A stretch of DNA of 64,000 nt. Origin: Roseibium alexandrii DFL-11 (lineage in GTDB: Bacteria; Pseudomonadota; Alphaproteobacteria; Rhizobiales; Stappiaceae). The stretch covers positions 3,257,203 to 3,321,202 of the forward strand of contig NZ_CM011002.1 in NCBI RefSeq assembly GCF_000158095.2. Reading direction: 5' to 3'. This document shows positions 4,264 through 17,629 of the stretch, one piece after another. Numbering within the stretch: position 1 is the stretch's first letter; each line of letters begins with the position of its first letter. A program made the position numbers and the translations under genes. A model generated the notes under the pieces. That model did not search any database and was not told where the DNA came from. It was given only the letters and a program-made list of their open reading frames with translations.

Positions 4264-5340
4264 ATGATCAGCAGATGTTTGATGAAAGCGCTGAGTGCCA
4301 TCGCGGCGAATGCTGCGCTCTCGTTCTTGATATTGATCAGCACTTTTGCGGTTACAGGCGCTCAGGAACGGACTTGCCTGCGCGGCGTCAATATCGCGGG
4401 CGCCGAGTTCGGCGGCTATGAAGGGCCCTATGGGGAAAGCTACATCTATCCTTCAGATGCAACGCTGACATGGGCCGCCTCCAGGCAAATGACCACAATC
4501 CGCCTTCCGTTCCGCTGGGAACGTCTCCAGTCGAAGCTGCATTCGGCACTGGATCCGGCCGAGCTTGCCCGCCTCAAGCAGACGGTGGCCAAAGCGAAAC
4601 AGCACGATCTGACCATCATTCTGGATCCGCACAATTTTGCCGAATACCGCGATGTGAAAATTGGTCAAGGGTCCGTGACGGTGGAGGCCTTCGCAGACTT
4701 CTGGCGCAAACTTGGCTCGGAGTTTTCCGGTGACCCGCGTGTCCTCTATCTTCTGATGAATGAGCCAGAAGGTGTCACGGCCACCACGTGGTTCAAGGCC
4801 GCCCAGGCCGCAATCCTTGCGATTCGGGGCGTTGGTGCAGACAACCTCGTTCTTGTTCCCGGCACTATTTGGACCGGGGCATCTCACTGGTTCGACGACC
4901 AGCCCGGCGGATCGAACGCTGAGATTTTCAAGGGGATCGCGGATCCGGCCAACAACTTCGCCTTTGACATTCACCAGTACCTCGACGCGGATTTTTCTGG
5001 CCGGAACGCCACCTGTCCGCGAACCGGTGATGCCCTGAAAGCTCTTGAAGCCGTCACAAAATGGATGCGGCAGTACGGATATCAGGCCCATCTTGGCGAG
5101 TTTGGCGGAACTGCGTCGCACGATTGCCTCGACGGCCTTGCGCAAGTGGCGGCTTACATCAATGACCAGAGTGACGTCTGGATCGGTTGGACAGCCTGGG
5201 CCGCCGGCGATTGGTGGGGGGACTACGCCTTGTCCCTCCAGCCACAGGACAGTATCGACACTCTGCAGATGACGGTCCTAGAGCGGTTTATGACAGCGTC
5301 AGATGGGTCCCGCGCGATCTGCGGCGCAGCTTCAAACTAG
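4264..5340 (+). CDS. secreted glycoside hydrolase family 5 (endoglucanase-like)
   Basis: A 358-residue exported glycosidase. Residues 1-33 form a signal peptide (basic start, hydrophobic run about 12-30, cleavage probably after TGA). The mature part is a GH5 (beta/alpha)8 barrel: RGVNIAG near the start, LPFRWERL, DPHNFAEY at 121-128, the acid/base Glu167 in LMNEPEG, and the nucleophile Glu279 in HLGEFGG. GH5 enzymes of this type cleave beta-1,4-glucans, but substrates vary widely, so cellulose should not be assumed. It stands alone after the cobalamin genes and is convergent with the methyltransferase gene 15 bases away. An internal ATG at codon 7 is an alternative start. Confidence 0.9.
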   Translation: MISRCLMKALSAIAANAALSFLILISTFAVTGAQERTCLRGVNIAGAEFGGYEGPYGESYIYPSDATLTWAASRQMTTIRLPFRWERLQSKLHSALDPAELARLKQTVAKAKQHDLTIILDPHNFAEYRDVKIGQGSVTVEAFADFWRKLGSEFSGDPRVLYLLMNEPEGVTATTWFKAAQAAILAIRGVGADNLVLVPGTIWTGASHWFDDQPGGSNAEIFKGIADPANNFAFDIHQYLDADFSGRNATCPRTGDALKALEAVTKWMRQYGYQAHLGEFGGTASHDCLDGLAQVAAYINDQSDVWIGWTAWAAGDWWGDYALSLQPQDSIDTLQMTVLERFMTASDGSRAICGAASN

Positions 5341-5355
5341 GTTTGCGAGACGGCC

Positions 5356-6150
5356 TCAAGCAGGCAGCGCGACAAAATCCAGATGGCCGACTGTCATGGT
5401 GAACGCGCCATCCGAGATCTGCGAGCGGCGGGTTTGCAGCCAACGGTCGGCTTTGGACTTCTCAACGCCCTGTTTGACGCCAGCGCCAACCCAGCCGGGC
5501 AGGAATTCCGCCAGAAAATCCTCATGCTGCGGGCCAATGATCCAATCAGACTTACCGCTGACAACCCTGTATCCCTTGGCCCTAAAGAGCGCAATTGCCT
5601 GTTCGGCTGCCTTGGGCCCCAGCGCCGGACCAAAGCCCTTGTCGGTCTGCTGGTCGCGGTTCATCGCATCACAGAGATCCTGATCGAGTGGTTCAGCGGG
5701 TGCAAATCCCGTCCGGCCATCATAAGTCAGGCTGGCCAAAAACGGTTTTCCGGACGAGACGATTGCTTCGACAAGTTGCATCAGGAATTCTTGCGAGACC
5801 AGATCAAGGAACGCTGATGTCGTAATCGCATCGACCTCATGAAACGGAAGCTCCTTGAGGTTTGCCGCAAGATCGATTTCTTGAGTTTGAAGCGATGCAG
5901 GTTTAGTCGCGTAGTCACGGCTGGCCGCCAACGAAAGAAGGTCGGCATCGTAGTCGGACAAGATCCAATGAATGTCCGGTTTTGTACCTGCCAGAGCAGC
6001 AACGGTCGAGCCTGCACCGCTAGCAAGGTCCAAGACCTTCACGGTCTCAGCCGGCAAGGCCCCAAAAAACGCAGCTTCGACATCACTGTTCCGGGCCGCA
6101 AGGTCCAGAGGTTCGCGCAAGGCCAACCAAGTTGCTGAAAATCCGCTCAC
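5356..6150 (-). CDS. class I SAM-dependent methyltransferase of the pterin-like operon
   Basis: A 264-residue Rossmann-fold methyltransferase. Motif I is VLDLASGAGS at about residues 38-48, followed by the acidic motif II region LSDYDADLL and a post-I segment (DAITTSAFLDLVS) of the type seen in small-molecule methyltransferases. No signal peptide or membrane segment is seen. It is the last gene of the four-gene leftward operon and its ATG overlaps the glycosyltransferase stop by 4 bases, indicating coupled translation and a shared pathway. The substrate is unknown; given its neighbours it may methylate a sugar or a pterin-like product. This is inference from context only. Confidence 0.85.
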   Translation of the reverse strand: MSGFSATWLALREPLDLAARNSDVEAAFFGALPAETVKVLDLASGAGSTVAALAGTKPDIHWILSDYDADLLSLAASRDYATKPASLQTQEIDLAANLKELPFHEVDAITTSAFLDLVSQEFLMQLVEAIVSSGKPFLASLTYDGRTGFAPAEPLDQDLCDAMNRDQQTDKGFGPALGPKAAEQAIALFRAKGYRVVSGKSDWIIGPQHEDFLAEFLPGWVGAGVKQGVEKSKADRWLQTRRSQISDGAFTMTVGHLDFVALPA

Positions 6151-7205
6151 TGCGCCACCTTTTCCATGACTGTCTCAAAGACTTTAACAGCGTCCTCCCA
6201 GCGTGGCAGGGATTGAGCGGCATTCCAGGCCGCGTCGGCAAGACGTTGCCGGGCCTCGGCATCAGACATCAGGGTGGAAAGGGCAGCGTTCAAAGCCTGC
6301 ACATCTTCCACGCCGCAATAGATCGCACCTCCGACCGAGAGGGTGTCTTTGACTGCTCCGGCGCCACTGCCGATCACCGGCAAACCATGCGCAAGCGCTT
6401 CCGTATACGCCATGCCGTACCCCTCATAGCGGCTCGCCAGAACGAAAACGTCCGCCGAGCAATAATAATCGCTAAGCTTTTCTTGCGGCACCGCCCCATG
6501 GAACGTGATGCGGCCGGTGAGCGCAAGAGTGTCTAACTGGTTCTTCAGAGCTACGACACAACCTGGATCTGCTTCGAGTCCGCCAACGATATCCAGATGC
6601 CAATCCATCTCTTTCAAGTGGCCCAGCGACTCAAAGAGAAGATCGTAGCCCTTCCTCTGTGTCACAGTTCCAATGGATAGCAACCGTATTGCACCCTCTG
6701 ACGCATTGCGCCTCTGCTCTAGAACCTCTGTTCCCGGAAGTGCAATGCTAATAGTATCCTTTGGGGTCCCGAACAGGTCCTCGATTTGAACGGCCGTCGC
6801 CGGACTTGTCACGATCACGTGGCGGGCATGGCTGAGAGCCGCACCTTCACTTGCAAGCAGGCGCTCAGCAACGTCCTTGGACAAGCCGTTTTCCCGGCAG
6901 AGCGGGTGATGAACAAGGGCGATCAGCCTCAGTCTCTTGCCGTGCTTTCCGGCGGCCTGATCCACAACGCCGTAGGCCAAGCCATCGATAATGACCACAG
7001 TATCGTCCGGGAGAGCGGAAAGAGCTTCGTCGACGGTCTGAAGGGTTTTCCGTGATGGGAAAGGAAATCCCGGTCCAAGCGATAGCAGCCTTACGTCCCA
7101 ACTGTTGGCAGCAAGACCCGCGATCACGCGCCGATCGTACCCATATCCGCCTGTCAGTGTTTCGAGATCACCGGGATAAGCAAAGACAAGCCGTTTATCC
7201 GGCAT
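6147..7205 (-). CDS. glycosyltransferase family 4
   Basis: A 352-residue GT-B fold retaining glycosyltransferase. The N-terminal domain has the GGYGYDRR loop typical of GT4 acceptor/donor sites, and the C-terminal domain has the E-x7-E motif in EGYGMAYTEALAHG, which binds the nucleotide sugar. I chose the ATG at 7205 because it follows the stop of the upstream gene by one base and begins the conserved domain; the frame is open 12 codons further upstream. It overlaps the downstream methyltransferase by 4 bases. No membrane segment is seen, so it is probably a cytosolic enzyme acting on a soluble acceptor or at the membrane surface. Its place beside a pterin-synthase homologue suggests glycosylation of a pterin-like metabolite, but this is unproven. 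Confidence 0.88.
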   Translation of the reverse strand: MPDKRLVFAYPGDLETLTGGYGYDRRVIAGLAANSWDVRLLSLGPGFPFPSRKTLQTVDEALSALPDDTVVIIDGLAYGVVDQAAGKHGKRLRLIALVHHPLCRENGLSKDVAERLLASEGAALSHARHVIVTSPATAVQIEDLFGTPKDTISIALPGTEVLEQRRNASEGAIRLLSIGTVTQRKGYDLLFESLGHLKEMDWHLDIVGGLEADPGCVVALKNQLDTLALTGRITFHGAVPQEKLSDYYCSADVFVLASRYEGYGMAYTEALAHGLPVIGSGAGAVKDTLSVGGAIYCGVEDVQALNAALSTLMSDAEARQRLADAAWNAAQSLPRWEDAVKVFETVMEKVAQ

Positions 7206-7206
7206 G

Positions 7207-7605
7207 TCAGATCTTTGCCTCGTGCCACGCGCGGGCAACATGGGATTCAGAGATCGTCACCCGTATGGCCGCAAGCTCGCCGCCCTTGCGGCCGAGCCGG
7301 TCCTGCCGCGCTGCCTCGGCCAAATAGCCATGAATGTGTTTGGTCAGGAATTCCGTGGTCGTATTGATCCCGGCAAACTCGGGCACCTCATCAAGGTTCT
7401 TGTAGTTGAGCGGTGCCAGCACTTCCTTGAGCGCTTCATGCGCCCGGCCGATATCGATCACAACCCCGTTTTCATCCAGATCTTCGGACAAAAAAGACGC
7501 ATCTATAACAAATGTCGCGCCGTGCAGCGCCTGTGCCGGACCAAACAGCTCCCCTTTAAAGGAGTGGGCAATCATCACGTGATCGCGAACTTCTACAGCA
7601 AACAT
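7207..7605 (-). CDS. divergent 6-pyruvoyl-tetrahydropterin synthase / QueD homologue
   Basis: A 132-residue T-fold protein of the PTPS/QueD family. QueD turns dihydroneopterin triphosphate into 6-carboxytetrahydropterin with three zinc-binding histidines, a nucleophilic Cys and a Cys/Asp/His relay. Here the N-terminal zinc histidine is kept (His14 in IAHSFKG). The C-x3-HGH motif is replaced by AQALHGATF, so one zinc histidine (His28) remains, the other is Ala30, and no Cys precedes it. The LDHxxLN relay reads LNYKNLDE. The TTTEFL motif and a C-terminal Glu120 (ISESH) that usually anchors the pterin ring are kept. The ATG at 7605 has AGGA 8 bases upstream. It probably binds a pterin- or purine-like ligand but is unlikely to do standard QueD chemistry. 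Confidence 0.85.
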   Translation of the reverse strand: MFAVEVRDHVMIAHSFKGELFGPAQALHGATFVIDASFLSEDLDENGVVIDIGRAHEALKEVLAPLNYKNLDEVPEFAGINTTTEFLTKHIHGYLAEAARQDRLGRKGGELAAIRVTISESHVARAWHEAKI

Positions 7606-7646
7606 ATTTGTCTTCCTAAGTTCCTGGGTTTTCTGCCAAGCTGGCA

Positions 7647-8660
7647 TCACGCCTCGTCGGCTTGGTCATAAACGATGACCGCAGCCAAGACATCTGATGC
7701 CTTGTTCAATATTTCGGGAACGCGCACCGCGGCGTCTTCAAATGGAATCTTGTGGCTGATCAGAAGATCCAGACGTGGATCATCCAGTAGGGAAAGCGCC
7801 AATTCCAATCGCCGCCGGTAAGTCCAGCGCGCCTGCCGTTCAGCCGGAATTGTGCCCACTTGGCTTGAGATCAATTTGATCCGGCGGCTATGAAAATCCG
7901 CTCCGAGCGGCACCCCGACGGTCTGATCGCCGTACCAACTCATTTCTATGACCGAGGCGCCATCACCAGCGCTGGAAAGCGCCGTTGTCAGCCCGGCTGC
8001 GCTCGCACTTGTGTGGAATACAAGGTCTTGGTCTCGCGGCGCATCCCCTGGAAGGCTGAAACGAAATCCAAGGGCGGATGCGATCTCAGTGCGGGCCGGA
8101 TTGATATCCACCAAAGTCACAGTTGATCCGGGGATACGGTTGCACACGTAAGCTGTCAGTAGTCCGACGACACCGCCGCCGACCACGCAGATGTGATCCC
8201 CAGGTGATGGTTTTCCATCCCATAAAGCATTGAGAGCGGTTTCTAAATTGGCCGCAAGCGTCGCCCGCTTGGCCGGAATGGAAACAGGCACAGGGACACA
8301 GGCATCCGACGGGAGAGTGTAGAGATCTTGATGCGGAAAGAGCGAAAAGACGAGCTTACCTGCAAGTTCAGCGTCTCCGTCGATAACGGTTCCAACGCTG
8401 GCGTAGCCGTACTTGACCGGAAAGGGAAACTGTCCCTCCTGAAAAGGCGCACGCAAGCGATGCCATTCTGTTTCCGGAACCGCATCGCGAAGCACAAGCC
8501 CTTCAGTTCCCCGGCTGATCGCACTGTTCAAGGCCTTGATCAGAACCTCTCCCGGCTGCGGATGCGAGAGCATAGCCGGCTTCACCGCGCACTCGCCGCC
8601 GCCGACATACCAAATGGCATGAGCTTCATGGCGATCAGCTTCTTTAGAGGAAGTTGGCAT
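7647..8660 (-). CDS. MDR-superfamily (zinc-less) alcohol dehydrogenase-like protein
   Basis: A 337-residue medium-chain dehydrogenase/reductase, first gene of the leftward operon. The NAD(P)-binding motif is VVGGGVVGLL around residues 170-180. The catalytic-zinc region, normally containing a Cys, reads NSAISRGTE with Ser49 in its place, and the four-Cys structural zinc lobe is absent. It therefore belongs to a zinc-independent MDR branch despite the usual annotation as a zinc-binding alcohol dehydrogenase. The ATG at 8660 is preceded by GGAG at 10 bases; the frame is open upstream but unconserved-looking. It is divergent from opgH across 97 bases and is separated from the PTPS-like gene by 41 bases. 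Substrate unknown. Confidence 0.87.
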   Translation of the reverse strand: MPTSSKEADRHEAHAIWYVGGGECAVKPAMLSHPQPGEVLIKALNSAISRGTEGLVLRDAVPETEWHRLRAPFQEGQFPFPVKYGYASVGTVIDGDAELAGKLVFSLFPHQDLYTLPSDACVPVPVSIPAKRATLAANLETALNALWDGKPSPGDHICVVGGGVVGLLTAYVCNRIPGSTVTLVDINPARTEIASALGFRFSLPGDAPRDQDLVFHTSASAAGLTTALSSAGDGASVIEMSWYGDQTVGVPLGADFHSRRIKLISSQVGTIPAERQARWTYRRRLELALSLLDDPRLDLLISHKIPFEDAAVRVPEILNKASDVLAAVIVYDQADEA

Positions 8661-8757
8661 TCTGCAATTTCTCCGAACCCTGACACGCTTTTGCCACCAC
8701 ACCCAATTATCGCTACGCCCATTCATGCCATGTTTGCAAGGATTGAAAGTCCGAAAA

Positions 8758-10590
8758 ATGTTGCAAGTCTTTGATAAAACTAACCCGGCATTGACCAAAA
8801 CGTCCATGACCGGTCGCAGGGTTCTGTTCGCCTTCCTGTTGGCGGCAAGTTTCGTTGCCTTGTCGGCGTTAATGTTCGTGACATTATCTCCCGGCGGTCA
8901 CACGCCCTTGGACTTCTTCATCCTTGCCTGTTTCATGGTCACACTTCCGTGGACCATTATTGGCTTTTGGAACGCTGTGATCGGTCTGCTGGTCATGCGT
9001 TTTTCCAAGGACCCTGTCGCAGCCGTATGCCCGATTGGCGCCGGAGACGCGTCTCAATCGATCTCCAGTTCCACAGCGCTTCTCTCCTGTATCAAGGATG
9101 AGGACGTCGACGCGCTGGAGACCAATCTCACCGCGATGGCCAGCAATCTGATCCGTGCAGGCTCCGGCCATAACTTCACGCTCTATGTTTTAAGCGATAC
9201 GTCCCGGGACGACACAGCGCAGCAAGAACAGCAAATGGCGGCCCGGCTGTCTGCACGGTTTTCTGGGCAAATGGATGTCGTTTATCGTCGCCGGGCCGTA
9301 AACACCGCGTTCAAAGCCGGCAACATCGAAGATTTTTGCGAACGTTGGGGAGATCGCCACGAGTTTGCGATCGTCCTGGATGCGGACAGCTACATGTCTG
9401 CCTCAGCCATAATCGATCTGGTACGGCGCATGGAAGCCAATCCGCAGATCGGCATCCTTCAAAGCCTCGTGGTTGGGTTGCCGACAGACAGCGCCTTTGC
9501 ACGGGTTTTCCAGTTTGGGATGCGTCTCGGAATGCGCTCCTACACGATCGGCAGCGCGTGGTGGCAGGGAGATTGCGGGCCCTATTGGGGGCACAATGCC
9601 ATCTTGCGGCTAAAGCCGTTCAAGGAGCACTGCAAGCTGCCAATTCTGCCCGGAACAGGCCCGTTGAGCGGTCCTGTTCTATCGCACGACCAGGTTGAGG
9701 CTGTTCTGATGCGCCGCGCCGGATATGAAGTCCGTGTCCTGCCGCAAGAAAGTGGGAGTTATGAAGCCAACCCACCGCATCTCTTGGAGTTCATCCGACG
9801 TGATCTTCGCTGGTGCCAGGGCAATCTGCAATACCGCAAACTGCTCGGTCTCAAGGGCCTCAAGCCCGTTAGCCGGGCTCAATTGGTGCTCGCCATCCTG
9901 ATGTTTCTCGGCTCACCCGCATGGATCGGATTTATGGTTGGCGCCGCAACCCTTGGAATGACCACGGATTACGCCCCTTACCGGGCGGACACCGGCGCAG
10001 TTTTGTTTTTCTCTGTGCTGACGATGGTTTTCGCTCCGAAGCTGGCGACTGTCGCGGACATCATTGCACGCGCGGATCTTCGAAAAGCGTTTGGCGGGCC
10101 TATTCGGATTCTGCTCAGCGTGATGGCTGAGATCGTCTATGCGGCCATGCTTGCGCCAATCATGGCGGTTGCTCACACCGTTTTCATGGCTGGTCTTGCT
10201 TTCGGAAAGTCTATTGGTTGGGGTGCGCAAGCGCGGGGTGTTGCCCGCTTACCTGTTATGCTTGTCGCTTCCAAACTCTGGCCGCAGACCCTTTTCGGGG
10301 CAGCTGGCCTTGCCTGGATCGTTCAGCAGCCAATCGGCCTGGTTTGGCCGGTTATCCCTGTCGCAGTGGGGCCTCTGCTTGCAACGATGCTTGCTGTGAT
10401 GACGTCGACAAAAACGCTAGGCACCCTGGCAATACGGTCCACACTCTGGCGGATCCCGGAGGAGACCACGCCTCCTGCGGAATTGTTGCAGCTTCATCTG
10501 CCGGCTTTGCAAAAGGGCAAAGGGGCCGAATTTCAGCCGCAGGACTTGCAAACAGCTGCAGCAGAACCTGAAACGGCGGAAGCCCGCTGA
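8758..10590 (+). CDS. opgH: osmoregulated periplasmic glucan glucosyltransferase H
   Basis: OpgH (MdoH) is the inner-membrane GT2 enzyme that polymerises UDP-glucose into the backbone of osmoregulated periplasmic glucans. The protein is about 610 residues with two N-terminal membrane segments, the cytosolic GT2 domain containing LDADSYMS (DxD), LSHDQVEAVL and the RRDLRWCQGN (QxxRW-like) motif, then several C-terminal membrane segments. The start is uncertain: ATG at 8725, 8758 or 8806; I favour 8758. OpgG, the usual partner, is not adjacent. An OpgC-type acyltransferase begins at the right end of the window. The C-terminus ends in a low-complexity Glu/Ala/Gln tail. Confidence 0.92.
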   Translation: MLQVFDKTNPALTKTSMTGRRVLFAFLLAASFVALSALMFVTLSPGGHTPLDFFILACFMVTLPWTIIGFWNAVIGLLVMRFSKDPVAAVCPIGAGDASQSISSSTALLSCIKDEDVDALETNLTAMASNLIRAGSGHNFTLYVLSDTSRDDTAQQEQQMAARLSARFSGQMDVVYRRRAVNTAFKAGNIEDFCERWGDRHEFAIVLDADSYMSASAIIDLVRRMEANPQIGILQSLVVGLPTDSAFARVFQFGMRLGMRSYTIGSAWWQGDCGPYWGHNAILRLKPFKEHCKLPILPGTGPLSGPVLSHDQVEAVLMRRAGYEVRVLPQESGSYEANPPHLLEFIRRDLRWCQGNLQYRKLLGLKGLKPVSRAQLVLAILMFLGSPAWIGFMVGAATLGMTTDYAPYRADTGAVLFFSVLTMVFAPKLATVADIIARADLRKAFGGPIRILLSVMAEIVYAAMLAPIMAVAHTVFMAGLAFGKSIGWGAQARGVARLPVMLVASKLWPQTLFGAAGLAWIVQQPIGLVWPVIPVAVGPLLATMLAVMTSTKTLGTLAIRSTLWRIPEETTPPAELLQLHLPALQKGKGAEFQPQDLQTAAAEPETAEAR

Positions 10591-10648: not shown

Positions 10649-11116
10649 TCAGGCAGCGTTGGACGATGCTATTGGCTGGGTGAGAAGTTCGTAGATGTTT
10701 TCAGCTTCGGCTGCAGACCGGATCCCTTCAGTGACCGTTGCATCGCGCAATTGCCTCGCAATGCGGGCAAGGGCCTTTAGGTGGTCAGCTCCAGCCCCTT
10801 CAGGCGCCAGCAGCAGGAACACAAGATCCACCGGTTCTTCGTCAAGTGAATCAAAATCAACAGGTTTGTCCAGACGCGCGAATACTCCGACAAGGCGATC
10901 TAGACGGATAAGTTTGCCGTGTGGAATTGCGATACCTTGCCCGACGCCGGTGGAGCCAAGCCGCTCACGCTGCAGCAACGTATCAAAGACTTCCCGCTCA
11001 GAAAGACCGGTCAGTTCAGCCGCCTTGGCCGCCAACTCCTGGATCGCCTGCTTTTTGCTCTTGGCTTTAAGCTTGGAGATTACCGCGTCTTTGCTCAGAA
11101 GATCACTAAGATCCAT
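10649..11116 (-). CDS. ptsN: PTS IIA-like nitrogen regulatory protein (EIIA-Ntr)
   Basis: EIIA-Ntr is the terminal phosphoryl acceptor of the nitrogen-related phosphotransferase system and regulates potassium, nitrogen and stress functions rather than sugar uptake. The 155-residue protein has the phosphorylated His66 in GIAIPHGK and the usual EIIA (mannitol/fructose type) fold length. It is the last gene of the rpoN-hpf-ptsN string, the normal order in proteobacteria, 68 bases after hpf. A 9-bp hairpin lies in that gap. Partner NPr and EI-Ntr genes are outside the window. Confidence 0.95.
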   Translation of the reverse strand: MDLSDLLSKDAVISKLKAKSKKQAIQELAAKAAELTGLSEREVFDTLLQRERLGSTGVGQGIAIPHGKLIRLDRLVGVFARLDKPVDFDSLDEEPVDLVFLLLAPEGAGADHLKALARIARQLRDATVTEGIRSAAEAENIYELLTQPIASSNAA

Positions 11117-11140
11117 TCCTTCGCCTATCCGTTTCGGGCG

Positions 11141-11167
11141 CCGGCTTCCCGCTTACAAGGAAGCCGG
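11141..11167 (-). other. intercistronic hairpin between hpf and ptsN
   Basis: Nine perfect base pairs (CCGGCTTCC / GGAAGCCGG) around a 9-base loop lie in the 68-base gap between hpf and ptsN. There is no T-run, so full termination is unlikely. It could protect the hpf transcript end or set the hpf/ptsN expression ratio. Confidence 0.45.
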
Positions 11168-11184
11168 ACCCTAGCGCAACAGTG

Positions 11185-11772
11185 TTATTCTGCGGCGGCG
11201 TTTGCCACCAGTGCAGGGTCTATCCACCCTATATTGCCATCCGCCCTGCGGTAGACAACGTTGACACCACCATTTGCCGCATTTTTGAACATGACAACCG
11301 GCGCTTCCGTTAGATCAAGCTCCATAACGGCCATGCCCACGGTCATCGTTTTCACTTTTGCAGATGTCTCTGCAATTACCAGCGGATTGAAATCTGCCGG
11401 GACTTCCTCGTCTTCCTCCGGCGAGGCCAACACGTAGGACGCTGCTTCGAACGCCTCGCGGCCATTGCCGTTGTGACTGTGATGATCCTTCAGTTTACGC
11501 TTGTAACGGCGTAATCGTTTTTCGATCTTGTCAGCAGCTTGATCAAAGCTGTTTCTTGGATCCTGATCCTGAGCTGACACTTGCAGCACAATTCCAGTGT
11601 CCAGATGCACGGTGCACTCGGATTTAAAACCCGTGCCCTCCCTACTCAGCGTGACGTGGCCAGTGAAACCGCCCGTGAAGTATTTCGAAAGGGCGTCTTC
11701 GATTCGGTCTGTGATATGGACACGCATTGCGTCACCAACATCAACATTTTTACCCGAAATCCGCAAAGCCAT
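11185..11772 (-). CDS. hpf: ribosome hibernation promoting factor, long form
   Basis: HPF binds the 30S decoding site and, in the long form, dimerises 70S ribosomes into inactive 100S particles in stationary phase. The 195-residue protein has the N-terminal HPF/YfiA domain (about 1-105, MALRISGKNVDVGDAM onward), a variable linker rich in acidic residues (about 108-130), and the C-terminal dimerisation domain (about 135-195, with VMFKNAANGGVNVVYRRADG-type core). The ATG at 11772 has AAGAGG just upstream. It lies between rpoN and ptsN. A good sigma-70-type promoter is at 11907-11935 and a strong leader hairpin at 11806-11825. Confidence 0.95.
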   Translation of the reverse strand: MALRISGKNVDVGDAMRVHITDRIEDALSKYFTGGFTGHVTLSREGTGFKSECTVHLDTGIVLQVSAQDQDPRNSFDQAADKIEKRLRRYKRKLKDHHSHNGNGREAFEAASYVLASPEEDEEVPADFNPLVIAETSAKVKTMTVGMAVMELDLTEAPVVMFKNAANGGVNVVYRRADGNIGWIDPALVANAAAE

Positions 11773-12074
11773 GGGGACCTCTTCTTTTTCTATTGACCGA
11801 CAGGTCACCGGCGGAACCGCCGGTGCGGAAACGAGAAACGTTTCACGCCTACACAATGGACCAGTCAGCGCTAAAGTGCCATCCCCCTCATAGTCACAAG
11901 GGCGGTCCTATAATCGGCGCCTGCATGAGAGTCAATCGTCTCATGAAATGGGAAAGAATCCGACAAAACCAATAAAGAAAACGGGGTAATATTGCGAGAA
12001 ATGCAAAAGAAACTGACGTTTCTTACAGTTCAGGCTGACAAAACCAGAAGGAGTTCGGCTGATCCCTCGGACGG
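11773..12074 (-). promoter_or_regulatory. hpf upstream region with promoter and leader hairpin
   Basis: No gene is visible in these 302 bases. On the minus strand a near-consensus promoter is present: TTGACT (11935-11930), a 17-base spacer and TATAGG (11912-11907). Transcription would start near 11900 and give a leader of about 130 bases. That leader contains a 9-bp hairpin, CACCGGCGG / CCGCCGGTG with a 2-base loop (11806-11825), about 34 bases before the hpf ATG. The rest (11936-12074) is the tail after rpoN; no terminator was recognised there. Confidence 0.6.
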
Positions 12075-13637
12075 TCACATCTTTGCGTTTTTTTCCCGCC
12101 GCCGTTGAACGGAAGAGCCGATTTTCATGGCCTCGCGATATTTTGCGACCGTGCGGCGCGCAATATCCACGCCCTCGTCTTTGAGGACTTTCACGATGGT
12201 GTCATCGGAGAGAATCGCCTTCGGATCTTCCGCGTCTATCATCTGTTTAATCTTGTGGCGCACAGATTCGGCCGAATGCGCGTCGCCGCCGACTGTCGCG
12301 GAGATTGCCGAGGAGAAAAAGTACTTAAGTTCAAAAATGCCACGCGGTGTCGCCATGTATTTGTTGGACGTCACCCGGCTGACCGTCGACTCATGCATTT
12401 CGATCGCTTCAGCAATCGTTTTCAGATTTAGCGGGCGGAGGTGCGCAATTCCGTAAGTCAGGAAACCATCCTGTTGACGCACGATCTCGGTGGCGACCTT
12501 TAGAATTGTCTTGGCCCGCTGGTCTAGGCTTTTCGCGAGCCAATTCGCCGTCTGTAGCGACTCAGTCAGGTATTCTTTCTCGGTTTCATTGCGGGCAGTT
12601 TTCACAACACGCGCAAAATATGTCTGATTGACAAGAACCTTCGGAAGCGTGTCGGAGTTAAGTTCAACCGCCCAAGTGCCATCGTTGGCCGGGCGGACGA
12701 AAACATCCGGCACCATTGGCTGGACCAAAGCACCGCCAAATACAGAGCCGGGTTTTGGATCAAGGGCTCTGATCTCGTGGATCATGTCCTTCAGGTCTTC
12801 CTCGTCCACGCCGCATATTTTCTTCAGTGCTGCCAGCTCGCGTTTGGCAAGCAACTCGATATTGGCGATCAAAGCTTCCATCGCCGGGTCGTACCGGTTC
12901 TTCTCAATCAACTGGAGCTTGAGACACTCAGCCAGGTTTCGGGCAAAAACGCCGGCCGGCTCGAACGTTTGCAAGATACTCAGAACACTCTCAACCCGTT
13001 CCGGCTCAACACCGAGTTGCTCGGCGGCTTCAATCAAATCGATATAGAGATATCCGTTTTCATCCAATGAGTTGATCAGGTGTCCGGCAATCAACTTGTC
13101 CACGTCATCGGATATAGCGAGGTTCATCTGCTCCTCCAAGGAGGTGGTCAGAGACCCCTCTTCGGCGACAAACGCTTCAAGATTATAGTCTTCTGAGGCT
13201 GCGCTTGATCCGGCATTCTTGTAGCTGTCACCACCCTTCAGCTGAGCCGGATCCGGAGAGGCCGGCACGCCAGGCTCATCCGGATATACGTTGCTGAGAT
13301 CTGTGTCCATCCGCGAGGCGATAGCCTCCGCACCGGTTTCCAAATCGCTCTGCATCCAGTCGCCGCTGCCAGGTTCGCTATCGCCGCCCGGAGGTTTTTC
13401 TGACCGTTCCGAGCGGGCATCACCGGGTGCTTCGGACTGGGTATTGGCGTCGCTGGGAGCGTTGTAAACTGCATCGGCCTCCCCTTTTTCCAGAAGCGGA
13501 TTGCGTTCCAGCTCAGCCTCGACATAGGCAACCAGATCAAGATTGGACATCTGCAGCAACTTGATCGCCTGCATCAACTGCGGCGTCATGACAAGAGACT
13601 GGCTCTGCCGCATCTCCAATTTGGTTGATATTGCCAT
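12075..13637 (-). CDS. rpoN: RNA polymerase sigma-54 factor
   Basis: Sigma-54 directs RNA polymerase to -24/-12 promoters and needs AAA+ activators. The 520-residue protein has the glutamine-rich region I (MRQSQSLVMTPQLMQAIKLLQ-type start, residues about 9-50), an acidic variable region II (about 55-130), the core-binding region, the DNA-binding helix-turn-helix, and the RpoN box ARRTVAKYRE near residue 500. It lies between lptB and hpf, the usual order. The frame is intact, and no second copy is in the window. Confidence 0.97.
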   Translation of the reverse strand: MAISTKLEMRQSQSLVMTPQLMQAIKLLQMSNLDLVAYVEAELERNPLLEKGEADAVYNAPSDANTQSEAPGDARSERSEKPPGGDSEPGSGDWMQSDLETGAEAIASRMDTDLSNVYPDEPGVPASPDPAQLKGGDSYKNAGSSAASEDYNLEAFVAEEGSLTTSLEEQMNLAISDDVDKLIAGHLINSLDENGYLYIDLIEAAEQLGVEPERVESVLSILQTFEPAGVFARNLAECLKLQLIEKNRYDPAMEALIANIELLAKRELAALKKICGVDEEDLKDMIHEIRALDPKPGSVFGGALVQPMVPDVFVRPANDGTWAVELNSDTLPKVLVNQTYFARVVKTARNETEKEYLTESLQTANWLAKSLDQRAKTILKVATEIVRQQDGFLTYGIAHLRPLNLKTIAEAIEMHESTVSRVTSNKYMATPRGIFELKYFFSSAISATVGGDAHSAESVRHKIKQMIDAEDPKAILSDDTIVKVLKDEGVDIARRTVAKYREAMKIGSSVQRRREKNAKM

Positions 13638-13719
13638 TGATGTCCCGGGCGCTCGTCAGGTTCGGTTGGTCTGCTTCTTGCTTATGATCACAAGATACAA
13701 ACTTGCACGCCCGTTGTCA

Positions 13720-14502
13720 TCAAAGGGTAAACTGCTCACCAAGATAAAGTCGACGGACATCTGGATTTGACACAATGTCCCGCGGAAGCCCTTCGGTCAG
13801 AACTTCTCCGGCAGCAATAATATAGGCGCGGTCGATCAGACCGAGCGTCTCCCGGACATTGTGATCCGTAATCAAGACCCCGATACCGCGCTTTGTGAGG
13901 TGACGTACAAGCTGCTGAATGTCACCGACAGCGATTGGATCGATCCCCGCAAACGGTTCATCGAGCAGCATGAATGATGGACGGCTTGCCAGAGCGCGGG
14001 CAATTTCCACACGTCGGCGCTCACCACCAGAAAGTGCTATACTTGGAGATTTGCGCAAGTGGGTCAGACCGAATTCCGCCAGTAGGGAATCCAGGTCTTC
14101 CTTGCGCTGTTTCCGGTTCGGCTCGATCACCTCAAGGACCGCACGAATGTTTTCTTCCACCGTCAATCCACGGAAGATAGAGGCTTCCTGGGGCAGATAC
14201 CCAATCCCAAGCCGGGCCCGGCGGTACATCGGCATACGGGTAATGTCGAAGCCTTCAAGATAGATCTTGCCCTGGTCGGGCCGGATCAAGCCCGTGATCA
14301 TATAAAAGGTCGTTGTCTTGCCGGCACCATTCGGGCCGAGCAGACCAACCGCTTCCCCAGGGCGAACCATCAAGCCAACATTCTTTACCACCTGACGGCG
14401 GCCATAGGTTTTGCCAATACCGTCAACCACGAGTGCGTTGGACAGATCTTCAGCTGGTGCCACGGCACCAGTAAGGCCATGTTCAAATTCGTAATTGTCC
14501 AT
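13720..14502 (-). CDS. lptB: LPS export ABC transporter ATP-binding protein
   Basis: LptB is the cytosolic ATPase of the LptB2FGC complex that extracts lipopolysaccharide from the inner membrane. The Walker A motif GPNGAGKTT, the ABC signature [15 protein letters not shown], Walker [11 protein letters not shown] and the switch histidine LITDHNVRE are all present. About 260 residues, slightly longer than usual because of an N-terminal extension before [10 protein letters not shown]. The start is uncertain: ATG at 14502 or in-frame GTG at 14538; neither has a good ribosome site. Between lptA and rpoN, as in most alphaproteobacteria. Confidence 0.95.
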
Positions 14503-14597
14503 AGGAGGCCGGTTCACTGATGGTCTATCCGTTTGCACCGCAATCGGGTGCTGTTGAAGTCATTAGATACGACAAATGTTACCGGTGACATCCGGCA

Positions 14598-15179
14598 CTA
14601 CTGCTGCGTGCTGGGCGCTGAATTGGGAAGGATACGCACCCTTACACGCCCATCGTCAGCGGGGGCGTTCAAATTGGCCTGACCGGTCTTCAGGTTTACC
14701 GTCAAACGATTGCCAACGACAACATTGCCGCCTTGTTTCAAGACGACTTCCTTGCCCGTCATAACCATGACTTCGGTTTTCATATCGAAGTTTGCTTCGT
14801 CTCCTGTTGCCGTCTGATCTTCAGAGGAGATATGAACGCCACCACTCGCCTCGAGCCGCGAAATTTCCTGCTGGGCTGGAACAGCGCCATTGCTTGTGTC
14901 CGCGCCCTCAGAACTCTGACCATCGCCGTCGTAGAAAACCTTCAGCTGCGACGTTTCAAGACGGGTGTCTCCCTGGATCACCACGACATCGCCGATAAAA
15001 GTCGCGACTTTGGTCTGGTCTTCAACCTTGAGTTCGTTTGACTCGATCTCGATTGGCTGACCGTCGCTTGACCCAAATCCGGCGAAAGAATCCGAAAAAG
15101 TTTGCGCGGAAAGAGGCGCAATTGCCAGCATCAACGCTGAAAAAGCGACCAAGCCGCGTTTAAAGACCGGTTTCATCAT
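14598..15179 (-). CDS. lptA: LPS export periplasmic protein LptA
   Basis: LptA forms the periplasmic bridge that carries lipopolysaccharide between the membranes. 193 residues: a signal peptide (hydrophobic run about 9-22, cleavage after PLSA), then the OstA/LptA beta-jellyroll repeats with IEIESNELKVEDQTK and the GDVVVIQGDTRL and VVVGNRLTVNLKTGQ blocks. The linker around residue 88 is Ser/Asp/Gly-rich. The ATG overlaps the lptC stop by 4 bases, so the two are coupled. Confidence 0.93.
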   Translation of the reverse strand: MMKPVFKRGLVAFSALMLAIAPLSAQTFSDSFAGFGSSDGQPIEIESNELKVEDQTKVATFIGDVVVIQGDTRLETSQLKVFYDGDGQSSEGADTSNGAVPAQQEISRLEASGGVHISSEDQTATGDEANFDMKTEVMVMTGKEVVLKQGGNVVVGNRLTVNLKTGQANLNAPADDGRVRVRILPNSAPSTQQ

Positions 15180-15847
15180 TGGTTTTCGTCCTCGGTCGCC
15201 GGGTAAAGGATCAGCTTGACGCCCTCTTTAAACCAAACGATTTGCTTGTCTTTGTCGTAATCGATTTTGCCGGCGGTCAACTGAGCCTCGCCGGAACCAA
15301 TGGTAATAGGATCGTCGGACGATATCGCGCCTGTTTTAAGGTCAACGTCGACCGTCTCAACATCCACTGTATACCCTTCGCTCCAGTTCAGCTGCACCCC
15401 CTCATATAGGCGCAAGGTTTCCGCAGCGTTATTATATATGCCTTTAAGGGAAATTATCCGCGCGCCCTCGTCCGGTGCAAGCACGATATCGGCGCGAATT
15501 TCCTCCAAATCGATGATCCTCGGATCGGTAAGGCGCTGGATCGCCTTGCGTGCTGTCACTTGATAGGAGCGCTCGCCATCATTGCCGGACAGTTTTGGGT
15601 GATCCATCACGATCCCGTCGCTGGTCAAAACGAGATTGGCAGCGCCGAACGACCCGAGAACATTGAACAACACCACAGCGCCGATCATGCCGGCCAAGAT
15701 GAGCAGCCCTATTGCGGGAAACAGAAAGCGCAGAACGCGCACAAGAGTGCTGTGCCGCCGTGCGGATCTCTGGACCCGGCTCTCCATGTCGCGTGGTCTT
15801 AGCCCGCCGAACTGTTGGTTTACTGCGCTCAAAGGCAACTCCAGCAC
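15176..15847 (-). CDS. lptC: LPS export protein LptC
   Basis: LptC is a bitopic inner-membrane protein that receives LPS from LptBFG and passes it to LptA. 223 residues with one membrane segment at about 40-62 (LFPAIGLLILAGMIGAVVLF region) and a periplasmic LptC/YrbK domain rich in beta strands (ITVGSGEAQLTAGKIDYD-type end). The cytosolic N-terminus is longer than in enterobacteria, as is common in alphaproteobacteria. Coupled to lptA by a 4-base overlap; 41 bases downstream of rnd. Confidence 0.9.
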   Translation of the reverse strand: MLELPLSAVNQQFGGLRPRDMESRVQRSARRHSTLVRVLRFLFPAIGLLILAGMIGAVVLFNVLGSFGAANLVLTSDGIVMDHPKLSGNDGERSYQVTARKAIQRLTDPRIIDLEEIRADIVLAPDEGARIISLKGIYNNAAETLRLYEGVQLNWSEGYTVDVETVDVDLKTGAISSDDPITIGSGEAQLTAGKIDYDKDKQIVWFKEGVKLILYPATEDENQ

Positions 15848-15888
15848 TCCCGAACTCAGTAACGCAGCTTTCCGGCGGCGAAGGCTCC

Positions 15889-16509
15889 TCAGGAATGAGC
15901 AAAAATGTCGTTTTCTTCCCAGCCCTTCAGATCGAGTTCCGCACGAACCGGCAAGAAGCTAAAGCAGGCCTCAGCAATATTCGTACGCTCCTCGCGCTCA
16001 AGCATCATCTCAAGCTTCGCCTTCAGATCATGCAGATGCAATACGTCTGATGCTGCATAGGCCAATTGCGCATCCGATAGTGTTTCAGCAGCCCAGTCTG
16101 AGCTCTGCTGCTGCTTCGACAATTCAACCCCTAAAAGCTCGCGGGTGATATCTTTCAATCCATGACGGTCTGTGTAAGTGCGCACCAGTTTCGAAGCGAT
16201 TTTGGTACACCAGACCGGAGTTACATGAATCCCCAGATAGTGACGAAGAACAGCCACGTCAAACCGCGCGAAGTGGAAAATCTTCGGTTTGGCCGCATCG
16301 GTAAACAGTGCCGCCAAATTGGGCGCTTCCGTTTGCCCGCGAGCAATCTGCACCACATCGGCAGACCCGTCGCCGGGTGAGAGCTGCACAACACACAAAC
16401 GGTCCCGGTGGGGGTTCAATCCAAGCGTTTCTGAATCTACTGCCACGGCGGATGCCGTCTCATAGGCACTCAAGTCCGGCAAGTCGCCTTTGTGGTAGCG
16501 GATTGTCAT
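15889..16509 (-). CDS. rnd: ribonuclease D, single-domain form
   Basis: A 206-residue DEDDy 3'-5' exoribonuclease. Metal-binding motifs seen: Exo I VDSETLGLN, Exo II around HFARFDVAVL, and Exo III YAASDVLHL. The HRDC domains found in enterobacterial RNase D are missing, which is normal for the short alphaproteobacterial form. The ATG at 16509 has AAGGAA upstream; the frame is open 17 codons further but without a ribosome site. It heads the leftward lpt-rpoN string, a conserved neighbour order. Confidence 0.92.
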   Translation of the reverse strand: MTIRYHKGDLPDLSAYETASAVAVDSETLGLNPHRDRLCVVQLSPGDGSADVVQIARGQTEAPNLAALFTDAAKPKIFHFARFDVAVLRHYLGIHVTPVWCTKIASKLVRTYTDRHGLKDITRELLGVELSKQQQSSDWAAETLSDAQLAYAASDVLHLHDLKAKLEMMLEREERTNIAEACFSFLPVRAELDLKGWEENDIFAHS

Positions 16510-16647
16510 AACGCCATTTCCTTCTGGAGTTTTCTCGGACCGAATACGCGCACAAATCATACGCGCATGCCATCACTTCCCGTCACGTAAAACATGCCGC
16601 GAACGGGCGCAAGTGGCAGGATGATACGTCGACCGAAAACTGTTGTG

Positions 16648-17109
16648 TTATTTCTTGACGCGAAACGTCTCGTGGCAAGTCTTGCAGGTTTGGGCGAGAC
16701 GACCAAACGCGGTTGCTATCTGGTCACGGTCCGCACCCCCTTGAACTGCATCCGCAACGCTCATCGCCGCGGTTTCCATATCATTTGCAGTGCCTGAGAA
16801 CTGTTCCCATTTCTCCCAAATGAGCGGGCTCGCTTCAGTTGGCGGCATCAGGCTTTCCGACGGGAATTGCCGTGTCAGATTGTCACCGCTGTGGCCCGCG
16901 ATTATCCCTGCAGCACCAACGATTTCCGATGCATCAAAGGGCTTCTGACCCCGAAGCATCTGCCCAATTTGTTTCATGCTGGCGCTGATCTCCTCCATGG
17001 CCTCCATCCGCTCTTTGACAATTCCCGTCGCGCCCCCATGCGCAAATGCCAGTACAACACTTACGGCCAACATCACCGCGGAAATGCCTGCAGTCTTTCT
17101 GACAGTCAT
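16648..17109 (-). CDS. cytochrome c' (class II c-type cytochrome)
   Basis: A 153-residue exported heme protein. The signal peptide covers about residues 1-23 (cleavage near FAHG). The single heme site CKTCH at 142-146 is at the C-terminus, as in four-helix-bundle cytochromes c', which bind NO and protect against nitrosative stress. The ATG at 17109 has GGAGGG 7 bases upstream; an in-frame GTG five codons earlier overlaps that site and is unlikely. The gene lies 121 bases downstream of the CueR-like regulator and in the same direction. I saw no MerR-type operator in the gap. Confidence 0.92.
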   Translation of the reverse strand: MTVRKTAGISAVMLAVSVVLAFAHGGATGIVKERMEAMEEISASMKQIGQMLRGQKPFDASEIVGAAGIIAGHSGDNLTRQFPSESLMPPTEASPLIWEKWEQFSGTANDMETAAMSVADAVQGGADRDQIATAFGRLAQTCKTCHETFRVKK

Positions 17110-17230
17110 TGATGAGCCCTCCACTTTCTAACTCTATCAGCTCGCTAAAGGGCGGTGTTTCGTCGGTGGAATTGACATGATACCCACCAAAGACTGCTGC
17201 CACCTTGCAACTATTGCTATCGGTTTCTGT

Positions 17231-17629
17231 TTAACCGGTCGAAGTTGCACCCGCCAAGTCATCAATGATCGGACAGTCCGGACGATCATCACCCTGGCAA
17301 CTCGCCACCAGGGATTTCAGGGTTTTCTTTAAGGATTTGAGTTCGTTGATCTTGGCATCAATTTCGTCGATCTTCAGGCGTGCGATTGCTTTGACATCTG
17401 CGCTCGCCCGATTGCGATCATCATAAAGTGACAAGAGCTCACGGCATTGATCAATGGTGAAGCCGAGACCTCGCGATCGCTGTATAAACGCCAAACGCTG
17501 GACATCCGTCTCCGAGTAATCCCGGTAGCCATTTTCAGAGCGCATTGGTGCGACCAACTTGATGTCTTCGTAGTATCGGATCGTTTTCGTGGGCAGCCCG
17601 CACTGTTTTGCAGCATCACCAATGTTCAT
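17231..17629 (-). CDS. MerR-family regulator, CueR-like (Cu(I)-responsive type)
   Basis: A 132-residue MerR activator. Residues 1-70 form the winged helix (MNIGDAAKQCGLPTKTIRYYED start), followed by a long dimerisation helix and a metal-binding loop with Cys111 and Cys119 (CQGDDRPDC). The C-x7-C spacing is that of CueR/HmrR, sensors of monovalent copper, silver or gold. No copper ATPase or multicopper oxidase is adjacent, which is unusual. The closest gene it could control is the cytochrome c' downstream, or its target lies elsewhere. Confidence 0.9.
   Translation of the reverse strand: MNIGDAAKQCGLPTKTIRYYEDIKLVAPMRSENGYRDYSETDVQRLAFIQRSRGLGFTIDQCRELLSLYDDRNRASADVKAIARLKIDEIDAKINELKSLKKTLKSLVASCQGDDRPDCPIIDDLAGATSTG

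Follow-up and report, generated by a model that had tools for sequence, protein, structure and literature searches.

The T-fold protein SCO6650 of Streptomyces coelicolor reportedly contains no zinc and has no 6-pyruvoyl-tetrahydropterin synthase (PTPS) activity, and its neighbour SCO6655 is presumably a GTP cyclohydrolase II that halts at the formyl intermediate owing to a Tyr-to-Met change. Relatives of SCO6650, of PTPS and QueD (COG0720), of the early riboflavin enzymes (RibA, RibD/Rib7, BrbF/ArfB) and of the glucosyltransferase of opgGH, the genes for osmoregulated periplasmic glucans, recur in the type of locus described here, which we analysed starting from Roseibium alexandrii DFL-11. 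The window, as we call the whole 64,000-nucleotide stretch under study, covers positions 3257203-3321202 of contig 1 in a 5.46-Mb genome, and protein comparison places it nearest to Roseibium. An operon on its minus strand encodes, in transcription order, a medium-chain dehydrogenase/reductase (MDR), a PTPS-like T-fold protein, a glycosyltransferase of family 4 (GT4) and a methyltransferase. This four-gene operon is real and strongly conserved. On balance, we lean towards viewing it as the tailoring half of a widespread pathway that would act on an early riboflavin-type, GTP-derived pyrimidine or on a pterin made from it.

Searching for the PTPS-like protein in 142 genomes of the class yielded 14 strong matches (E <= 5e-30, the own genome included) and three weak ones. 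In the phylum sample (398 genomes), 106 matches reached E <= 1e-3: 27 were strong, with at least 124 bits (the own genome among them), and 79 genomes had only weak matches, of at most 49 bits; the three weak phylum matches that were read carry the canonical HGH motif. The gene is present in 26 of the 397 other genomes of the phylum sample. The strong matches, minus the window and two doubly counted genomes, make up the 37 sampled loci, each of up to 20 kb. A second set, the 80 named loci, comprises the best 80 of at least 593 confirmed stretches in species-representative genomes. As this set is biased to window-type loci and was picked in part by an HGAT pattern, motif statistics are taken from the 37. 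Neighbour profiles were built mainly from the named loci and applied at a cut-off of 40 bits; the counts are lower bounds, contig ends cutting some stretches short (in L134 the contig ends just past the PTPS-like gene).

The PTPS-like gene is accompanied by the MDR gene in 36, by the GT4 gene in 35 and by the methyltransferase gene in 34 of the 37 sampled loci. The corresponding figures for the 80 named loci are 75, 79 and 72; three named loci have no adjacent MDR gene despite enough flanking sequence (L036, L065 and L069). The four-gene set is found in alpha-, beta- and gammaproteobacteria and in actinomycetes; a haloarchaeal plasmid bears a more distant form of it. Since relatives in different orders and phyla keep the same four genes side by side, their grouping exceeds chance. 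A preliminary description of this DNA had proposed that the four genes form one pathway and had raised the possibility that the PTPS-like gene mostly occurs without the other three. The counts speak for the proposal and against that possibility.

In the window, the MDR gene (8660-7647, minus strand, 337 aa) comes first, followed on the same strand by the genes for the PTPS-like protein (7605-7207, 132 aa), the GT4 enzyme (7205-6147, 352 aa) and a class I S-adenosylmethionine-dependent methyltransferase (6150-5356, 264 aa, GTG start). Successive genes are separated by 41 bases and 1 base and, for GT4 and methyltransferase, overlap by 4 bases, exactly as first described. Start codons are inferred, the open frames of the MDR, PTPS-like and GT4 genes reaching further upstream. 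Other lineages arrange the set differently. The order in Roseobacteraceae (L092 and a Palleronia plasmid) is GT4, IMPase-family gene, cyclohydrolase, MDR, PTPS-like, methyltransferase and reductase, with an FkbM gene opposed. Roseovarius L094 has nine co-directional genes, for a CDP-alcohol transferase, a sulfatase, a flippase-like protein, GT4, the PTPS-like protein, the methyltransferase, a reductase, a cyclohydrolase and MDR. In betaproteobacteria the methyltransferase gene lies beyond the gene for OpgH.

The PTPS-like protein matches PF01242 at 1e-20, above the Pfam cut-off, and falls far under the cut-offs of TIGR00039 and the QueD models. Its AlphaFold2 model (pLDDT 94.5) has the T-fold of PTPS and QueD; the top structural match is 3d7j, followed by QueD and PTPS chains. 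Among solved structures, the nearest T-fold protein is that of 3d7j, SCO6650, with 54% identity and a TM of 0.95 against the model. Two Streptomyces plasmids hold the same gene set as the window, but in a locus of the CDP-alcohol-transferase type. With PTPS and QueD (TM 0.57-0.76, by query length) the window protein shares the fold and the pterin-anchoring Glu, whereas HGH has become HGA, the catalytic Cys is Ala, and LDH has become LNY with loss of the dyad His. Reading the active-site columns against the genome's own QueD showed the third zinc His replaced by Ala in 37/37 sampled relatives, and in 78/78 gene-called named relatives, which were chosen partly by that very pattern; the own-genome QueD and three weak-match controls retain it. 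The catalytic Cys is Ala in all 37 as well (Ala 77 and Gly 1 in the named set, n = 78). The dyad His is likewise replaced throughout the 37, by Tyr (22), Phe (7), Met (5) or Leu (3); the named set (n = 78) has Tyr in 77 and Phe in 1, and the Asp of the pair is retained in 2. The QueD Glu column, in an accurate alignment, is Glu in 37/37 sampled relatives, its role being assigned by homology, and E120 is invariant (48/48). A figure of only 13/78 from a quick alignment of the named set was discounted, gap placement having misaligned the Glu. We take this residue to be the pterin-anchoring Glu of the superfamily. Because the third zinc His, the catalytic Cys and the dyad His are lost, the gene was rejected as a working PTPS or QueD; judged by these residues, its product is a member of the fold family that lies outside the PTPS/QueD enzyme family as set by catalytic residues.

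The same residues bear on the idea of a canonical, cyanobacterial-type pathway to a glycosylated tetrahydropterin, in which the PTPS-like protein would make 6-pyruvoyl-tetrahydropterin. Membership in PF01242 and the adjoining glycosyltransferase agree with such a pathway; the vanished zinc ligand, Cys and dyad His and the poor scores against the enzyme models do not, and at the front end it is cyclohydrolase II that appears (no search was aimed at cyclohydrolase I). We regard this pathway as very improbable: the lost T-fold site, together with recurring upstream enzymes of riboflavin type, argues against a tetrahydrobiopterin/PTPS route. The products first suggested for the operon were a glycosylated, methylated pterin or deazapurine-like compound, or an unrelated sugar metabolite. 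A pterin-like compound is still plausible; a deazapurine is not favoured, since the genome's canonical QueD is encoded by a separate gene, located between what appear to be the ends of queC and queE (flanks judged by eye).

The domain evidence for the remaining enzymes is uneven. The GT4 protein, a GT-B enzyme, matches Glycos_transf_1 (PF00534) at 5e-27, above the Pfam cut-off, and has the E-x7-E motif, as do 74 of 80 gene calls. The methyltransferase scores 25 bits against PF13649, slightly under the cut-off of 27, and all matches of the MDR protein are below cut-off. No conserved catalytic-zinc Cys was found in the latter, the highest Cys share of any column among 73 gene-called relatives being 58%; from its sequence, the product of 8660-7647 is an MDR-family NAD(P) dehydrogenase/reductase lacking that residue.

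Early riboflavin enzymes recur beside the operon, in the form of a RibD-type reductase (30 of the 37 sampled and 53 of the 80 named loci), GTP cyclohydrolase II (16 sampled, 32 named) and a creatininase-family protein (6 sampled). The reductase differs from its riboflavin counterpart in having the reductase domain PF01872 only, with no deaminase domain; two such proteins do not reach the thresholds of the named RibD/Rib7 models. For one representative, the nearest relative of solved structure is 6p8c, a 2,5-diamino-6-ribosylamino-4(3H)-pyrimidinone 5'-phosphate reductase. A back-of-envelope estimate puts the chance of finding a reductase inside such a stretch at about 1%, given the few copies per genome. 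Of the class-sample genomes with the operon, not counting the own one, 11 of 13 have a dedicated reductase copy somewhere in the genome (>140 bits or, in one genome, split), against 0/7 operon-free genomes; the search took in five more genomes outside these two groups, one of them with a dedicated copy.

Most neighbouring cyclohydrolases keep the zinc-cysteine motif. It is intact in 15/16 of those from sampled loci, the remaining one being a weak split match without the motif, and in all loci together the motif is kept in 52/52 matches above 150 bits. The switch position in these 52 is Tyr in 50 and Met in one (S. fungicidicus), one being unreadable. A Met at this position presumably makes the enzyme stop at the formyl intermediate. 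The Met-type cyclohydrolase gene, on a plasmid, adjoins a creatininase-family gene; a creatininase gene is in the stretch also for 7 of the 50 Tyr-type enzymes. PMC9478397 describes BrbF of S. meliloti as a creatininase-family formamidase that deformylates the formyl intermediate of the cyclohydrolase. Three creatininase-family matches in the R. alexandrii genome would be compatible with this BrbF route.

Extra copies of cyclohydrolase II and reductase might also serve to raise the supply of a finished flavin or lumazine, which GT4 and the methyltransferase would then decorate to give a secreted glycosyl-flavin. This would suit the window's genus, in which RibD and a RibBA-type match were all that the searches turned up, and S. 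meliloti RibBA has been proposed, by the authors of the same paper (PMC9478397), to serve flavins for secretion. It is harder to square with the extra reductase being free of a deaminase domain, or with the presence of a PTPS-fold protein, which flavin decoration does not need; and the neighbour clusters to which Pfam gave an identity (about 20 of the 48 with at least four loci) include no lumazine synthase, riboflavin synthase, RibB or other later riboflavin gene. We therefore consider flavin decoration unlikely.

Membrane enzymes form the other recurrent group of neighbours. An intergenic stretch of 64 bases (8661-8724) separates the window operon from a divergent gene for an OpgH/MdoH-like membrane GT2 glucosyltransferase (8725-10590, plus strand). 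The encoded protein scores above threshold with two NCBIfam MdoH models, and the start of the gene possibly lies about 30 bases further in. This gene belongs to the conserved arrangement of window-type loci. The preliminary description omitted it, as it did the recurrent reductase, cyclohydrolase II, creatininase-family protein and membrane partner; its remark that the operon contains no transporter holds for the four genes and has to be qualified by the regular presence of a membrane enzyme. OpgH is found in 13 of the 37 sampled loci (9 at >=600 bits) and in 63 of the 80 named ones, and lies on the opposite strand less than 600 bases upstream of MDR in 62 of the 67 first-set loci that hold both. 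Other sampled-locus neighbours are CDP-alcohol phosphatidyltransferase (17), a flippase-like protein (11), cytochrome b561 (9; 28 of the 80 named loci), an FkbM methyltransferase (9) and a sulfatase (6). Within 900 bases upstream of MDR, the nearest gene of a profiled family is a divergent CDP-alcohol phosphatidyltransferase in 12 of 36 sampled loci, an OpgH, likewise divergent, in 8 and a reductase running in the MDR direction in 5, while 8 loci have no profiled family there; in Neorhizobium, OpgH is co-directional and ends 2 bases before MDR. OpgH and the CDP-alcohol transferase are usually alternative neighbours of MDR. On a quick tree of the MDR and PTPS-like proteins (95 rows), the OpgH label changes at least seven times on well-supported branches, implying repeated gain or loss of OpgH at the locus. 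The shared GT2 partner does not extend to the rest of the glucan system: no OpgG (PF04349) match was obtained in the window genome, with a positive E. coli control, which places the OpgH-like protein outside the standard opgGH pair. OpgG is absent from 10 of the 14 operon genomes searched (own included).

Neighbours of this kind could mean that the locus makes an envelope glycan or glycolipid, OPG-like or a phosphatidyl-glycoside, with the T-fold protein repurposed as a binding or regulatory subunit and no heterocycle in the product. OpgH, CDP-alcohol phosphatidyltransferase, sulfatase-family and flippase-like proteins, FkbM methyltransferase and an HGSNAT-type acyltransferase are indeed regular neighbours. 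A pure glycan product, however, leaves the reductase, the cyclohydrolase and the creatininase unexplained and gives no reason for the pterin-anchoring Glu to be kept in all sampled relatives; it appears to us an improbable alternative.

Returning to a pathway on a riboflavin-type pyrimidine, we infer every reaction and the product from what was observed, namely gene content, gene order, conservation and site loss. GTP cyclohydrolase II would first make 2,5-diamino-6-ribosylamino-4(3H)-pyrimidinone 5'-phosphate; a cyclohydrolase halting at the formyl intermediate, followed by a creatininase-family deformylase, would give the same compound. The deaminase-free RibD-type reductase would convert it to the ribityl compound and, for want of a deaminase, leave in place what we propose becomes the 2-amino group of a pterin. 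A phosphatase would then strip the phosphate, a role that the IMPase-family gene may fill in some Roseobacteraceae loci. The T-fold protein would hold the heterocycle through its conserved Glu and, together with MDR, shape it or adjust its redox state without PTPS zinc chemistry. GT4 would add a sugar and the methyltransferase a methyl group, before a membrane enzyme joined the product to a membrane or periplasmic carrier, the candidates being the OpgH-like protein in the window and, elsewhere, CDP-alcohol phosphatidyltransferase with a flippase-like protein. The product is probably a sugar-bearing, methylated, membrane-associated compound. A more specific version, which we offer as tentative and rather doubtful, is a ribityl-pterin or pyrimidine that is glycosylated, methylated and anchored to a lipid or glycan, and that would serve outside the cytoplasm as a redox carrier or pigment, often in partnership with the neighbouring cytochrome b561; OpgH and the phosphatidyltransferase-flippase pair would be interchangeable anchors for it.

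Several observations weigh against this scheme. A cyclohydrolase gene lies near only 16 of the 37 sampled loci, one of these by the weak split match, and is thus no obligatory neighbour. In contrast to the general pattern, front-end genes are absent near the window operon, and neither the window genome nor the 9 congeners searched have a dedicated reductase copy, RibD-level matches being the only ones; the genus thereby departs from the pattern. In the own genome and in each of 15 congeners, only one match to the GTP cyclohydrolase II family turned up. The own match is of RibBA type (G000:C1:2746247-2746717, L102), and the zinc-cysteine motif is missing from it and from the 11 congener matches read. 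As a dedicated reductase and a canonical cyclohydrolase II are lacking, the first three steps in this genus would have to be supplied by housekeeping riboflavin genes. Orphan PTPS-like genes on three Streptomyces plasmids (L139, L146 and L149), without relatives of MDR, GT4 or methyltransferase, are evidence against strict linkage. Finally, the roles of the two membrane-partner types may have nothing to do with each other. At first, 0/104 loci had both types (naive Fisher p 2e-11 on the 95 tree rows); in the phylum sample, however, both are present in 4 of 24 loci, with a weaker OpgH match (334-524 bits) away from MDR, and the tree offers only 7 well-supported independent pairs, for which a sign test gives no significance (median p 0.5). 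Strict mutual exclusion was accordingly rejected.

A match occurs in 21 plasmid records, of which 16 were read, two of them without annotation. All four genes in window order are carried by plasmids of Streptomyces fungicidicus, Thiodictyon, Methylosinus, Microbacterium, Agrobacterium, Neorhizobium, Peteryoungia and Rhizobium SL42. The Palleronia plasmid has the four in a different order, an S. globisporus plasmid has all four by profile, an Arthrobacter plasmid three of four by similarity, and the plasmid of Rhodobacteraceae SC52 is without GT4. In the records read, the set carries "queuosine biosynthesis" labels. The haloarchaeal copy, on a plasmid of Natronorubrum bangense (L151), has the four genes in window order at 23-34% identity. 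Its T-fold protein has HSH instead of HGA, with Glu at the position of the catalytic Cys, and may still be an active zinc enzyme because H-S-H is kept. The orphan Streptomyces paralogues have the same HGAT motif as the window family, with cupin, MBL-fold or MEKHLA genes close by.

No paper describing the gene set was recognised by title or abstract opening in a search of open-licence papers, and the passages seen of PMC8305020 do not discuss it. Going by the number of matching stretches, at least 593 among species-representative genomes, hundreds of species may make the compound; the gene set indicates a chemical class for it, and the system could reveal which role a T-fold protein takes on once the PTPS zinc site is gone.

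Some candidate members and calls were discarded. A cluster of ~340-aa proteins among the neighbours proved an antisense artefact of the first gene caller, and some OpgH matches antisense to MDR came from over-extended gene calls. A GH5 gene (4264-5340) that converges on the methyltransferase gene was rejected as a member of the system, being carried by 0/80 named loci. A scan of the locus for promoters and terminators gave no pattern above shuffled expectation. Near OpgH lies a conserved, apparently secreted protein of ~330 aa (L056:6053-7084, minus strand; 14 other named loci, L135, L199, L202 and L203), for which sequence comparison with Pfam, NCBIfam and PDB gave no match and whose model (pLDDT 78.6) has no PDB fold match at E <= 0.001. 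Beyond OpgH in the window, 10649-17629 encodes PTS EIIA-type, S30AE (hibernation factor-type), sigma-54, ABC and LptA/LptC-type proteins, an ordinary rpoN neighbourhood.

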